From positions 434,001-498,000 of the forward strand of contig JAUIJL010000003.1 in the NCBI GenBank assembly GCA_030431255.1: DNA of 64,000 bases, read 5' to 3'. How positions within the stretch are numbered: position 1 is the first letter of the stretch; each line of letters starts with the position of its first letter. This DNA is from Thermoanaerobaculia bacterium (GTDB lineage Bacteria > Acidobacteriota > Thermoanaerobaculia > Multivoradales > J023). The notes below the pieces were generated by a model. The model did not search any database. It was not told the DNA's origin and saw only the letters and a program-made list of their open reading frames with translations. The translations under genes were made by a program, and so were the position numbers. Below are positions 26,755 through 30,468 of the stretch, piece by piece.

Positions 26755-27540
26755 TTAGGGGGCAGGCGAGCCGCCCCTCTCCAGCTGGTCGAAGGCGGCC
26801 AAGATGGTATCCGGCTTCGGGCGAACGCGGTAGTTGGGCGCCAGATGCGACCACAGAACTTTTCCGTTGCGGTCGATGATGAAGCTAGAGCTTTGAGGCA
26901 GGTCTGCACCGTCCATGGGACGCCCGCCGGCATGACGGATATCCAGAAGCTCGATCAGCTGCCCTTCAGGATCCGAGTAGAAATCGAATTGGGCGCCGGA
27001 AGCCTCTCGCATAACTCTCAGATGCTCGGGTGCGTCGAGGCTGGCGGCCACGATTCGTAGGCCCTTCTGCTCAAATGCTTCTGCGTTTTGTTGGAGCTCG
27101 ACCAGCTCCCGTTTGCAGAACGGTCACCAATAGCCCCGGTAGATCACCAGAAGAGTGGCAGCGGGTTGAGAGCCGTCCGGCAGCGGGCTCAAGAGCTTTC
27201 CGACGGAATCGTCGTGTTTGGCCAGCTCCAGTCGTGCCAGCTTCTCCAGGGTTTGGCCCTGGGCTGTGGCCGATCCTTCGCGGTCATAAGCGGAATAGTC
27301 GAGGGTGTACCAGATGAAGGCGACCGCCAAGAATGTTGAGAAAGCGAAAGCCAACCCTCTCAAAACCCTTTGCACCTTGGATCCGGCTTTCAAGGTGAGG
27401 TGCAGGAGCCAACCCGCGGTGGCCAGCCCGATCAAGAAGTGGGCGATCGGGATGTCTTGGCGGATTCCCACCTCGGTGGCCAGGACGAAATAGGCGATCA
27501 CGGAGACGATCGACAGGAGTAGGGCTAGAAAAGTCTGCAT
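26755..27540 (-). CDS. Membrane-anchored selenocysteine redoxin (UxxC, UGA read as Sec)
   Basis: One reading frame of 262 codons runs from ATG 27540 to the stop at 26755. It is interrupted only by TGA at 27126-27124, at residue 139. On either side it reads LVIYRGYW-(U)-PFCKRELVELQ, the active site of AhpC/TSA-type redoxins with the first cysteine replaced by selenocysteine. Downstream it continues as a redoxin domain (LRIVAASLDAPEHL, DLPQSSSFIIDRNGKVLW). The N terminus has about three transmembrane helices (residues 1-80), then a short extracytoplasmic linker. A hairpin matching a bacterial SECIS follows the TGA. It is probably a thiol- or selenol-dependent peroxidase or oxidoreductase facing the periplasm. 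Pseudogene decay is unlikely given the conserved flanks. Confidence 0.88.
27093..27109 (-). promoter_or_regulatory. Bacterial SECIS element inside the redoxin gene
   Basis: On the minus strand GGAGCT-GGTCG-AGCTCC forms a perfect 6-bp stem with a 5-base loop starting with GGUC. The stem starts at +15 and the GGUC at +21 after the in-frame UGA. In the Escherichia coli fdhF SECIS the apical GGUC lies at +19 to +22, so both position and loop fit SelB recognition. Confidence 0.8.
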
Positions 27541-27674: not shown

Positions 27675-29249
27675 CTAGCCGCGAGCGCCGGATCCATCGT
27701 CGTCCTCCGTCTGCGGCTCTGAATCCGTGAGGGAGCCCTCCGAGGAATCCAAAAGCTCTGGATCGTTTGCAAGGTCCGTGGAATCCGAGGGGTCGCGCAG
27801 CCCCGTGCTGGGCACTGGTGGTGGCGGATCCAGAAACGGATCCGGTTCCGCTGACGGGTCTGCGGGCGGTCGGCCGTCCCAGGTCCCCAAGCCCGATGTC
27901 GCCGGCAGGGGCGAGAATTGATCCAGCACTGCAGCTCCTAAACCGATGGTCCAGGCCAAGTATTTAAGGCAGAAGCCGAGCATCAACAGGAGAATCGCCG
28001 TCAGTCGGATGGGCCACGGCGTGATCGACATGGCTTCGCCGAGGATCGACCAGCCGTAGAGGAAGAACAAGCCGACCATCAGGAGCAAGTATTTTCCCAG
28101 GCCCTGCAAATTGAATCGCCGCTGGATCCAGCGGCCAGTGGTCAGGGACACGCCGGCGAATCCCAAGAGCAGGTAGATGACGATCGCCAAGCACATCAAG
28201 GGCAGAACGAAAATCAGCAATGGGATTCCGACGATCGAGATCAAGAGCACGATGCAGACCAGTCCCAGGAGGGGCGCAAAAAGGACCTCGACCAAGAGAC
28301 CCACCAAGCCGGATTTCCAAGGCTCCAACTCGGCTCGCCGGCTGATTGCCTCGACCTTATTCGGCGCCAGCAAGAGCACCAGCAAAAGAATGATCGCCAA
28401 TAGGCCGAGACCGATGGCGCGACCGAAAAGATCGAACCAAGAGAAATCGAAGAGCTCGAAGCTGGGCCAGAAAATATTCGGCCTGCCGAGATCGATTCTC
28501 AGATCTCCCAGGTCGATGGCCTCACCCACACCCACCTGGGTGATTTCGCCGTCGACCTCGGATCCCGGCTCCCGTCGAATGCCGCCTCCAACCGCCACCA
28601 CATCCCCGTCGATGACGGAATCGGGCCCGAGGTGAATCGGTCCGCCGATCACCACCAACGAGCCGTCGACGCGGCCTTGCACGCTGGCGGAGCCGAGGAT
28701 GACGGTGGCATCGCCGTCGACCTCACCGTCGACGATCAACGGACCGCTGAATAGAACCACCTCCCTGACGGATTCGTTTTCCTCGATCCGCAGACCACTG
28801 CCAAAGGACACTTGGGTGTCGCGGCGATTGCGATAACGTCGCCGGCTGCGGCGCTCGTCCTCGTCCTCCTCCTCGTCGTCGCTGAGCTCAGGTGCCTCAG
28901 GGGGCGCGGGTGGGTCTTCAGGAGCGTCGATGACCTCGTCCTCGGACCGCGGGCTTTCACCTGCGGCCATGGCGAGGATCCAATCCGCATCGTTGTCCAC
29001 AAACCTGCGGAGGTCCGCTTCGGAGAGCTCAGCTCCGTCGATAGTGACCGCGCCGTCGAGGATCTCGAGGGTGTCGAAGTCGTCGCCTTCCAGGGGTTGG
29101 AGGACCCACCCTCGACTCAGCTGCACAACGCGGTAATCCTGTTGAATCTCCTCGAGAGTGGGCACATCTTGGGCGCCGGCGGCGGCGGCCAGCAGCATCC
29201 AGCCCAGGCAGAGCGCGGAGATCCGAGAGAAGGCGTTAAATCGAGACAT
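27675..29249 (-). CDS. Exported polymer-forming (bactofilin-like) protein with C-terminal membrane helices
   Basis: The protein has 524 residues. A signal peptide (to about residue 26, ending AAAAGAQ) is followed by an acidic linker rich in Asp, Glu, Pro and Arg. Residues 160-245 are regular beta-helix repeats of the polymer-forming/bactofilin type (GPLIVDGEVDGDATVILGSA, GRVDGSLVVIGGPIHL, DSVIDGDVVAVGG). About five hydrophobic helices follow (about 270-445). The C-terminal 80 residues are an acidic, proline-rich tail. Putting the beta-helix outside the membrane is inference from the signal peptide. Its ATG overlaps the upstream gene by 14 bases, linking it to the ECF sigma cluster. Confidence 0.8.
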   Translation of the reverse strand: MSRFNAFSRISALCLGWMLLAAAAGAQDVPTLEEIQQDYRVVQLSRGWVLQPLEGDDFDTLEILDGAVTIDGAELSEADLRRFVDNDADWILAMAAGESPRSEDEVIDAPEDPPAPPEAPELSDDEEEDEDERRSRRRYRNRRDTQVSFGSGLRIEENESVREVVLFSGPLIVDGEVDGDATVILGSASVQGRVDGSLVVIGGPIHLGPDSVIDGDVVAVGGGIRREPGSEVDGEITQVGVGEAIDLGDLRIDLGRPNIFWPSFELFDFSWFDLFGRAIGLGLLAIILLLVLLLAPNKVEAISRRAELEPWKSGLVGLLVEVLFAPLLGLVCIVLLISIVGIPLLIFVLPLMCLAIVIYLLLGFAGVSLTTGRWIQRRFNLQGLGKYLLLMVGLFFLYGWSILGEAMSITPWPIRLTAILLLMLGFCLKYLAWTIGLGAAVLDQFSPLPATSGLGTWDGRPPADPSAEPDPFLDPPPPVPSTGLRDPSDSTDLANDPELLDSSEGSLTDSEPQTEDDDGSGARG

Positions 29250-29745
29250 GGGTTTGGTTCCTCTGAGAGCTGATCAAGGCGATCAAACAACGGCTGACAA
29301 TCAGCACGAAAGTGGTGGTCAAAGCTAGAGCAGTCAAAGCTTGAGGGCTTGCCGCCGCCACCCAAAGGGCGCGGCCGAAGCTGCCGAAGGCGGATCCCAG
29401 GGTCCACAGCTCCACCAAAAAGTGGGCCGTTCCGGCGATCGCTTCCGCGGCCACACGGATGGCCGCGCTCAGGTCGACGGCCGTCAGGACACCGAGCATG
29501 AGCGGAGTCATCCAAGCGGCCGTAGCGGCGGTGAAGAGGAGGGCCGCCATCGTGACGTAGCGGCTCCAACCCCTCAGATCCTCGGGGCGGATCACTCCCG
29601 CCCGCTGGAGCACCCGTTGAGAGAAATCCGTAGACGGCACCGGTGTCGGCAGACTGCCGAACAGCTCAAAAAGCGCGACTTCCGCTTCTTGGTCCCTCTC
29701 GTGGCTTTCCAGCTCTAGCCAACGACTTAGATTTTCTCGGCTCAT
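29236..29745 (-). CDS. Membrane protein, putative anti-sigma-like factor
   Basis: The 169-residue protein has a soluble N-terminal segment of about 60 residues (LSRWLELESHERDQEAEVAL) and then three or four hydrophobic helices. It lies downstream of an ECF sigma factor gene and overlaps the polymer-forming protein gene, the position usually held by an anti-sigma factor. The N terminus lacks the His-Cys-Cys zinc motif of zf-HC2 anti-sigma factors. Residues 35-50 (PSTDFSQRVLQRAGV) resemble the short helix preceding the membrane segment in such proteins. The role is inferred from position only. Confidence 0.65.
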   Translation of the reverse strand: MSRENLSRWLELESHERDQEAEVALFELFGSLPTPVPSTDFSQRVLQRAGVIRPEDLRGWSRYVTMAALLFTAATAAWMTPLMLGVLTAVDLSAAIRVAAEAIAGTAHFLVELWTLGSAFGSFGRALWVAAASPQALTALALTTTFVLIVSRCLIALISSQRNQTHVSI

Positions 29746-29856: not shown

Positions 29857-30468
29857 TCACGGCATCGAATCCGAATTCGGCGCCAGACCTTCCGCGGTCA
29901 AAACCGTGGCCAGCTGTTTTCTGGCCCGATGCAGCAATACCTTAACGCTCGCCATGCTGATCTCCATGGTGTCGGCGATTTCTTGATAGCTCAGACCGGC
30001 TTGGAAGCGCAGGATCAGCACTTGCCGGTAGTTCGGCCGAAGCTCCGTCAAGGCCCGATCGATCACCTCGCTCAGCTCCGCGGACTCCGCTTGCCGAAGA
30101 GGGGATTGATGCTCGGGAGCTTCGATCACCTCCCAGGAATCTTGCCCAGAGGCATCTGAAGCTTCGAGAGGAACCATCGGTCGCCGCTTGCGCCGCAAAT
30201 GATCGATGGCTCGATTGTGGGCGATCTTGAACAGCCAGCTGGAGAAGCTTCGGTCCGGGTCGAAGGAGCGTAAGCTCTGGAAGGCCCTGGCGAAGGCCTC
30301 TTGAGTGAGGTCCTCGGCCAGGCCGGGATCCCGAACCATGCGCGCCACCACCGACAGCACCGGCCGCTGATAGCGCTCCACCAAAAAGCGATAGGCATCA
30401 GCGGAGCCCTGGAGAGCTGCCTGGACGAGCTGGTCGTCGGTGGGGGCGGGGGCTTTCAAGACCGTCAA
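29857..30468 (-). CDS. ECF RNA polymerase sigma factor
   Basis: The 203-residue sigma-70 family protein has region 2 at about residues 20-95 (YRFLVERYQRPVLSVVARMV, LTQEAFARAFQSLRSF, SSWLFKIAHNRAIDHLRR). Region 4 follows at about 135-190 (LRPNYRQVLILRFQAGLSYQ, then MEISMASVKVLLHRARKQL). The start is one of two TTG codons, 30468 or 30459; GAGGAG lies 3 or 12 bases upstream respectively. It is followed after 111 bases, which include a small hairpin at 29822-29840, by the membrane protein and polymer-forming genes. It probably controls these envelope genes and itself. Confidence 0.93.
   Translation of the reverse strand: MTVLKAPAPTDDQLVQAALQGSADAYRFLVERYQRPVLSVVARMVRDPGLAEDLTQEAFARAFQSLRSFDPDRSFSSWLFKIAHNRAIDHLRRKRRPMVPLEASDASGQDSWEVIEAPEHQSPLRQAESAELSEVIDRALTELRPNYRQVLILRFQAGLSYQEIADTMEISMASVKVLLHRARKQLATVLTAEGLAPNSDSMP

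Follow-up and report, generated by a model that had tools for sequence, protein, structure and literature searches.

Is a redoxin gene that carries a stop codon at its active site broken, or is that codon read as selenocysteine (Sec)? The question is raised by a frame on the minus strand (27540-26755) of the window, the whole stretch of 64,000 nucleotides analysed here. This frame of 262 codons encodes 261 residues followed by a TAA stop, and its sole interruption is a TGA at residue 139 (27126-27124), so that the coordinates and the stop codon given in the original prediction were confirmed. Standard gene calling (table 11) returned a 138-aa stub and a 98-aa fragment with a GTG start, the same two pieces into which the gene had been expected to fall. 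The features under discussion are:

26755..27540, minus strand: three-TM UxxC redoxin gene, predicted to encode a selenoprotein of 261 aa before a TAA stop; aligns with its relatives from M1 on
27124..27126, minus strand: UGA predicted to be read as selenocysteine (U139), from the frame and its conservation among relatives

Judged from sequence, this apparently stop-broken gene is almost certainly intact, with its stop codon read as selenocysteine. We assign a probability of roughly 93% to the reading in which SelB, Sec-tRNA(Sec) and a hairpin decode UGA-139 and so yield a selenoprotein of 261 residues, a three-helix membrane redoxin whose domain is predicted to lie outside the cytoplasm and whose chemistry would involve U139 and C142. 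The frame, the conservation of the UGA, the covariation of the hairpin and the Sec machinery are the grounds for this reading; the fold is that of a predicted model, and it is from these that we infer Sec insertion, topology, chemistry and substrate.

The genome encodes the machinery for selenocysteine

The genome to which the window belongs (10.19 Mb in 54 contigs, 98.8% complete) was searched for selA, selB, selC and selD, the absence of which would have counted against a selenoprotein. All four are present: a tRNA-Sec with anticodon TCA (UCA) scored 72.7 bits, SelA 381 bits, SelB 359 bits (above the cut-off) and SelD 360 bits, the last with an in-frame TGA of its own within GLAKTCGU. This agrees with the earlier expectation that the organism makes selenocysteine. 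Of the 72 genomes in the order, 68 had a tRNA-Sec match that exceeded the gathering score; three of these (G052, G057, G060) reached only ∼52 bits and perhaps contain a tRNA-Ser instead. Among the 46 genomes with a TGA-bearing match to the redoxin (see below), two had no tRNA-Sec match (G032 and G050, which are 82% and 70% complete, respectively) and two had only a weak one (G057 and G060).

Besides the redoxin gene, at least three further Sec genes were found in this genome. The selD gene (L020; G000:C48:70921-71844, minus strand) is itself predicted to encode a selenoprotein and has a hairpin, GAGCCC-GGUC-GGGCUC, after its UGA, the loop of which is close to the GGUCG loop of the redoxin gene. 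A second UxxC redoxin selenoprotein gene (L058; G000:C35, 1423-2022, minus strand; FFRGTWUPFC) has an N-terminus that resembles a signal peptide and is without the three-TM anchor. The remaining gene (L072; G000:C32, 1417-2004, plus strand; VRHFGUMFC) encodes a SelL-related selenoprotein, which scores 127.4 bits and so exceeds the cut-off of 120 for NF040769.

The in-frame TGA is conserved among relatives

A profile built from six three-TM proteins was used to search the order (72 genomes; E <= 1e-12), and this gave 114 matches in 53 genomes. A single TGA was present in 97 matches, two TGAs in one, a TGA plus a TAA in one and a TAG in one, while 14 had no stop; TGA thus occurred in 99 of the 114 matches, across 46 of the 72 genomes. 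A class-wide search (148 genomes, E <= 8.9e-42) returned 15 three-TM matches, namely the window gene and 14 relatives from 14 other genomes, and each of these 15 contains exactly one TGA (those from G003 and G110 are cut near contig ends). Close relatives with Cys at this position and no hairpin had been named in advance as the finding that would speak against a selenoprotein; the relatives from the same genus or family (G001, G002, G003, G006) have TGA. The same holds for more distant genes with a similar hydrophobic N-terminus (G071, G050, G054).

To read the residue at the motif, identical 60-nt sequences were reduced to a single copy and 24 loci without a motif match were dropped. The 62 remaining sequences, with the window gene included, comprised 59 with U and three with C. 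Upon rereading 11 of the 24 dropped loci, we found U at the equivalent place within looser motifs in eight (L081, L089, L115, L136, L140, L141, L142, L143), and none with that pattern in L133, L137 and L147. Among the three Cys proteins, L040 and L043 differ from the three-TM form in their membrane region. When the 62 domains were placed in a tree, one change was needed for the three-TM rows relative to the Cys rows; the key forks are unstarred, however, and five non-TM Sec rows are grouped with the three-TM rows, so that the tree does not establish that the anchor arose once. A scan of a collection of named genomes, from which records close to the genome of the window may be missing, gave 11 distant loci, eight of which were readable at the active site and had Cys or Ser (L023-L025 were left out), and none of the 36 records from a search of a plasmid collection covered 80% of the query.

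Two observations on individual relatives may be added. At one locus (L041/L089; G031:C263) the TGA is followed two codons on by a TAA (WUP*SRK), which could reflect decay of a Sec gene or a fault in the assembly. In family f4 (L049, L050, L052, L053, L056, and the more distant L054) a Sec redoxin with the motif YRSAVWUPYC runs on into an extra C-terminal region that has a Cys pair (CSETVCYVP; CDDEMCDLP in L054).

A hairpin downstream of the UGA covaries

The SECIS-like hairpin of the original prediction, a perfect 6-bp stem with a GGUCG loop, was recovered at the expected place and proved to covary among relatives:

27093..27109, minus strand: bSECIS-like hairpin GGAGCU-GGUCG-AGCUCC, +15 to +31 after the UGA, -9.1 kcal/mol when folded alone, judged by the rules in the available text of PMC13188914

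These rules, as printed there, call for a loop of 3-9 nt with G in its first two positions, a stem of 4-16 bp, a distance of 16-37 nt from UGA to loop and an MFE <= -7.5. The hairpin of the gene falls within every one of them, with its 5-nt loop, 6-bp stem, spacing of 20 nt and energy of -9.1 kcal/mol. Taken singly it is only moderately unusual: its stem was matched by 36 of 400 synonymous shuffles (p 0.090) and its energy reached by 18 of 500, and a stretch beginning 6 nt upstream of the UGA folds preferentially into another structure. When 1,500 of the 1,597 TGAs in the window were sampled, a bSECIS-like hairpin with a stem of at least 4 bp followed 152 of them, a stem of at least 6 bp 120, and such a stem plus a GG/GU loop 68; at least 121 open codons follow 120 of all 1,597 TGAs. 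By themselves, frame and hairpin are therefore not rare in the DNA of the window, and it is the relatives and the Sec machinery that carry the argument.

Among the relatives, the stems of 33 non-redundant Sec sequences (at least 6 bp in 32) were compared with synonymous shuffles, giving a combined Fisher value of 5.5e-14, which is too small because the relatives are not independent. The corresponding value for Cys redoxin controls was 0.91 (n=15, stem of at least 6 bp in three), having been 0.57 before five dubious frames out of 20 (L150, L151, L153, L158, L159) were dropped. The mean energy z from synonymous shuffling was -1.15 for 21 Sec sequences and -0.11 for three Cys sequences, with codon weights drawn from the tested sequences themselves.

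The alignments are ungapped and the hairpin occurs in two nearby registers, by which 47 of the 59 Sec sequences were sorted by the analyst into sets A2 (32 sequences, stem 18-23/29-34) and A3 (15 sequences, stem 14-19/25-30). In A2, 99.0% of the cells were paired (5-45% in slid controls), with six double-change cells and two pairs changed on both sides. In A3 this was 94.4% (29-49% in slid controls), with 26 double-change cells and five of the six pairs changed on both sides. The observed covariation score was reached by no shuffle in either set. Two other measures were not outstanding: the number of double-changed pairs was reached by 43 of 500 shuffles in A2 and 288 of 500 in A3, and further pair types by 244 and 73 of 500, respectively. 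Of the 12 Sec sequences outside these sets, four show a third register of the hairpin (L038, L110, L111, L112), three show another one (L130, L134, L139), and five are near copies (L050, L097, L101, L129, L145). An Rfam scan gave two sub-threshold matches, neither of which covers the hairpin of the gene. The occurrence of the same active-site TGA in many relatives, together with a covarying hairpin, is on these sequence comparisons more than chance would produce.

These data bear on the other ways in which the stop codon might be explained. It could stem from decay of the gene or a sequencing error in which a Cys codon (TGC or TGT) or another codon became TGA; one base change is enough, the assembly consists of 54 contigs, and Cys occupies the motif in three of 62 sequences. 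Against it stand the single TGA shared by the window gene and all 14 of its closest relatives, each from a different genome, the otherwise open frames, the covarying hairpin and the complete Sec machinery, which make this explanation extremely improbable. Decoding of UGA as Cys or Trp, or plain read-through with no selenium involved, would likewise sit well with those three Cys sequences. Yet seven of the ten window genes inspected terminate with UGA (as these were called under table 11, their lack of internal TGA is uninformative), tRNA-Sec passes the gathering threshold in 68 of the order's 72 genomes (the three weak cases included), and a stem of at least 6 bp marks 32 of 33 Sec sequences versus three of 15 Cys sequences. 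We therefore consider such decoding highly unlikely.

Decoding of UGA as Sec competes with termination, and the UGA comes after the three-helix module. Both would suit a selenium-dependent switch in which the 138-aa membrane stub is the main product and the Sec-containing read-through form a minor one. Against this speaks the conservation of the redoxin half among relatives, as collected with a whole-protein profile that could miss genes with the stub alone, and we regard a predominant stub as very improbable. Sec insertion at UGA-139 to give the full-length redoxin is the reading pursued below.

The redoxin domain has a UxxC motif

Two features define the catalytic part of the protein:

26851..27159, minus strand: redoxin domain of type AhpC-TSA (PF00578), which covers residues 128-230 and includes the UGA; 66.3 bits, cut-off 26
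27115..27117, minus strand: C142, the partner of U139 in UPFC; in the alignment with 2cx3 it matches the PxxxSxxC Cys

The UGA had been proposed to stand exactly where the peroxidatic Cys should be, and here the original prediction did not hold. In a phmmer alignment with 2cx3, a protein of the PrxQ/Bcp type listed as bacterioferritin comigratory protein / thiol peroxidase, it is C142 that falls on the Cys of FPAAFSPVC (PxxxSxxC), which we take to be the peroxidatic Cys of peroxiredoxins, while U139 falls on the Ser and R135 stands in place of the Pro. Sec at the peroxidatic Cys was rejected on the basis of this alignment. The best sequence match, the DsbE-like 3gl3, places U139 on the first Cys of WCGPC. 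The arrangement R135-x-x-x-U139-x-x-C142 thus departs from the peroxidatic motif PxxxT/SxxC(U), and since R135 replaces the Pro and U139 takes the Ser of 2cx3 and the first Cys of the CxxC in 3gl3, the motif is UxxC and that of peroxiredoxins is lost.

With PF00578 above its gathering score and UPFC as its UxxC motif, the protein is by sequence of the UxxC Prx-like type, comparable to the 'Prx-like thiol:disulfide oxidoreductase' selenoproteins, its function being putative. Prx-like UxxC selenoproteins were known by 2005 (PMC1088965), and they also appear as 'Prx-like 1' (PMC2398784) and in reviews from 2022 and 2026 (the latter PMC13188914, table 1). The window protein has in common with this group (PF00578, UxxC/UxxU) the AhpC-TSA domain, the UxxC motif and a bSECIS after the UGA; a three-helix anchor like its own is not mentioned in those portions of the descriptions that were compared. 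With the Sec-containing peroxiredoxins (TxxU) it has the peroxiredoxin fold in common, but there Sec occupies the peroxidatic position, whereas in the window protein Sec comes first (UxxC) and R135 replaces the Pro.

No NCBIfam family cut-off was reached by the window protein. SelL-related redox proteins (NF040769) aligned partially, over the active site, with 49.1 bits against a cut-off of 120, and ResA (NF002854) with 25.3 bits against 170. ResA and TlpA are membrane-tethered thiol-disulfide oxidoreductases, and by analogy the window protein may work in a like manner, as an anchored redoxin with a WCxxC-type motif that is predicted to be outside; it differs from ResA by its three helices and its Sec. 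In the AlphaFold2 model (pLDDT 86.2, pTM 0.83), a thioredoxin-like domain follows three long helices at the N-terminus. Peroxiredoxins came first among the PDB matches, and ResA appeared at rank 27. The window protein (LPQSSSF, at about residues 214-220) and the two members of set A4 closest to it (L034, L035) carry Ser in place of the Pro of IARPAEF, which may be the cis-Pro of the thioredoxin fold.

A predicted three-helix anchor would place the domain outside the cytoplasm

The N-terminal part comprises:

27472..27537, minus strand: predicted TM helix 1, residues 2-23; AlphaFold2 helix, with membrane spanning suggested by its hydrophobic sequence
27391..27447, minus strand: predicted TM helix 2, residues 32-50; AlphaFold2 helix, with membrane spanning likewise suggested by hydrophobicity
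27295..27378, minus strand: predicted TM helix 3, residues 55-82; AlphaFold2 model, following a K/R-rich TM2-TM3 loop

A Pfam scan of the window protein gave no match in this anchor, and one of the 15 members of A4 has a Cyt_bd_oxida_II match (4.5e-4). The N-terminal tail of the window protein (MQT) is uncharged. Over the 15 three-TM rows, the TM2-TM3 loop contains 2-5 K/R residues and the TM1-TM2 loop 0-2. Because positive charges mark the cytoplasmic side of membrane proteins (the positive-inside rule), these counts predict that the redoxin domain is located on the external side of the cytoplasmic membrane. Apart from U139 and C142 the window protein has no Cys or Sec, and no other such residue is invariant in A4; transfer of thiol electrons via the anchor is therefore unlikely.

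No three-helix anchored Prx-like selenoprotein was found in the accessible published literature, which was mostly open-access, and the fusions in section 9 of the main text of PMC2398784, in the part available, differ from a three-helix anchored redoxin. UxxC Prx-like selenoproteins being already known, the less usual features are the three-helix anchor of this protein, with charges that predict an outside redoxin domain, and the predominance of Sec in this redoxin family across the order, alongside two heme-copper oxidases in this genome.

Selenocysteine in a probably aerobic organism

Two heme-copper oxidase genes were found in the genome, and the organism accordingly is likely to respire aerobically, as far as gene content tells. 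Selenoproteins are rarely retained by aerobic bacteria, according to the available text of a 2026 review (PMC13188914). A genome with oxidases and several Sec genes, in an order where the redoxins mostly have TGA, is thus a place to ask why Sec persists with oxygen. A tentative and rather doubtful extension is that in this order, with the aerobic respiratory genes seen in the genome of the window, Sec may be the default in extracytoplasmic UxxC redoxins, that a Sec-only three-helix form evolved, and that thiol or peroxide chemistry of the envelope depends on selenium. If true, envelope chemistry would be selenium-dependent in organisms considered to disfavour Sec. As table 11 splits the gene into a stub and a fragment, this gene and its relatives are easily missed.

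Proposed mechanism and gene neighbourhood

In the proposed mechanism, the hairpin just 3' of the UGA would recruit SelB with Sec-tRNA(Sec), upon which the ribosome would insert Sec at UGA-139. When selenium or SelB is missing, translation would stop at the UGA and leave the 138-aa membrane stub. The full-length product would combine three membrane helices with a peroxiredoxin-like domain of thioredoxin fold, predicted to be outside. There, the selenol of U139 may attack a disulfide (or peroxide), C142 may resolve the U139 intermediate as a selenylsulfide, and a partner protein would then re-reduce the U139-C142 selenylsulfide. A separate partner is proposed because no Cys of the anchor is common to the family, and the anchored redoxin thereby poses its reductant and its substrate as targets for study.

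When stretches of 17-20 kb from five relatives were searched by tblastn, the redoxin was found in all five and none of the ten neighbouring window genes in any, so that no partner can be named from shared neighbours. Upstream on the same (minus) strand of the window are an ORF of 524 aa (27675-29249) and one of 169 aa (29236-29745), both without a Pfam match, and beyond these a gene for an ECF sigma factor (29857-30468).
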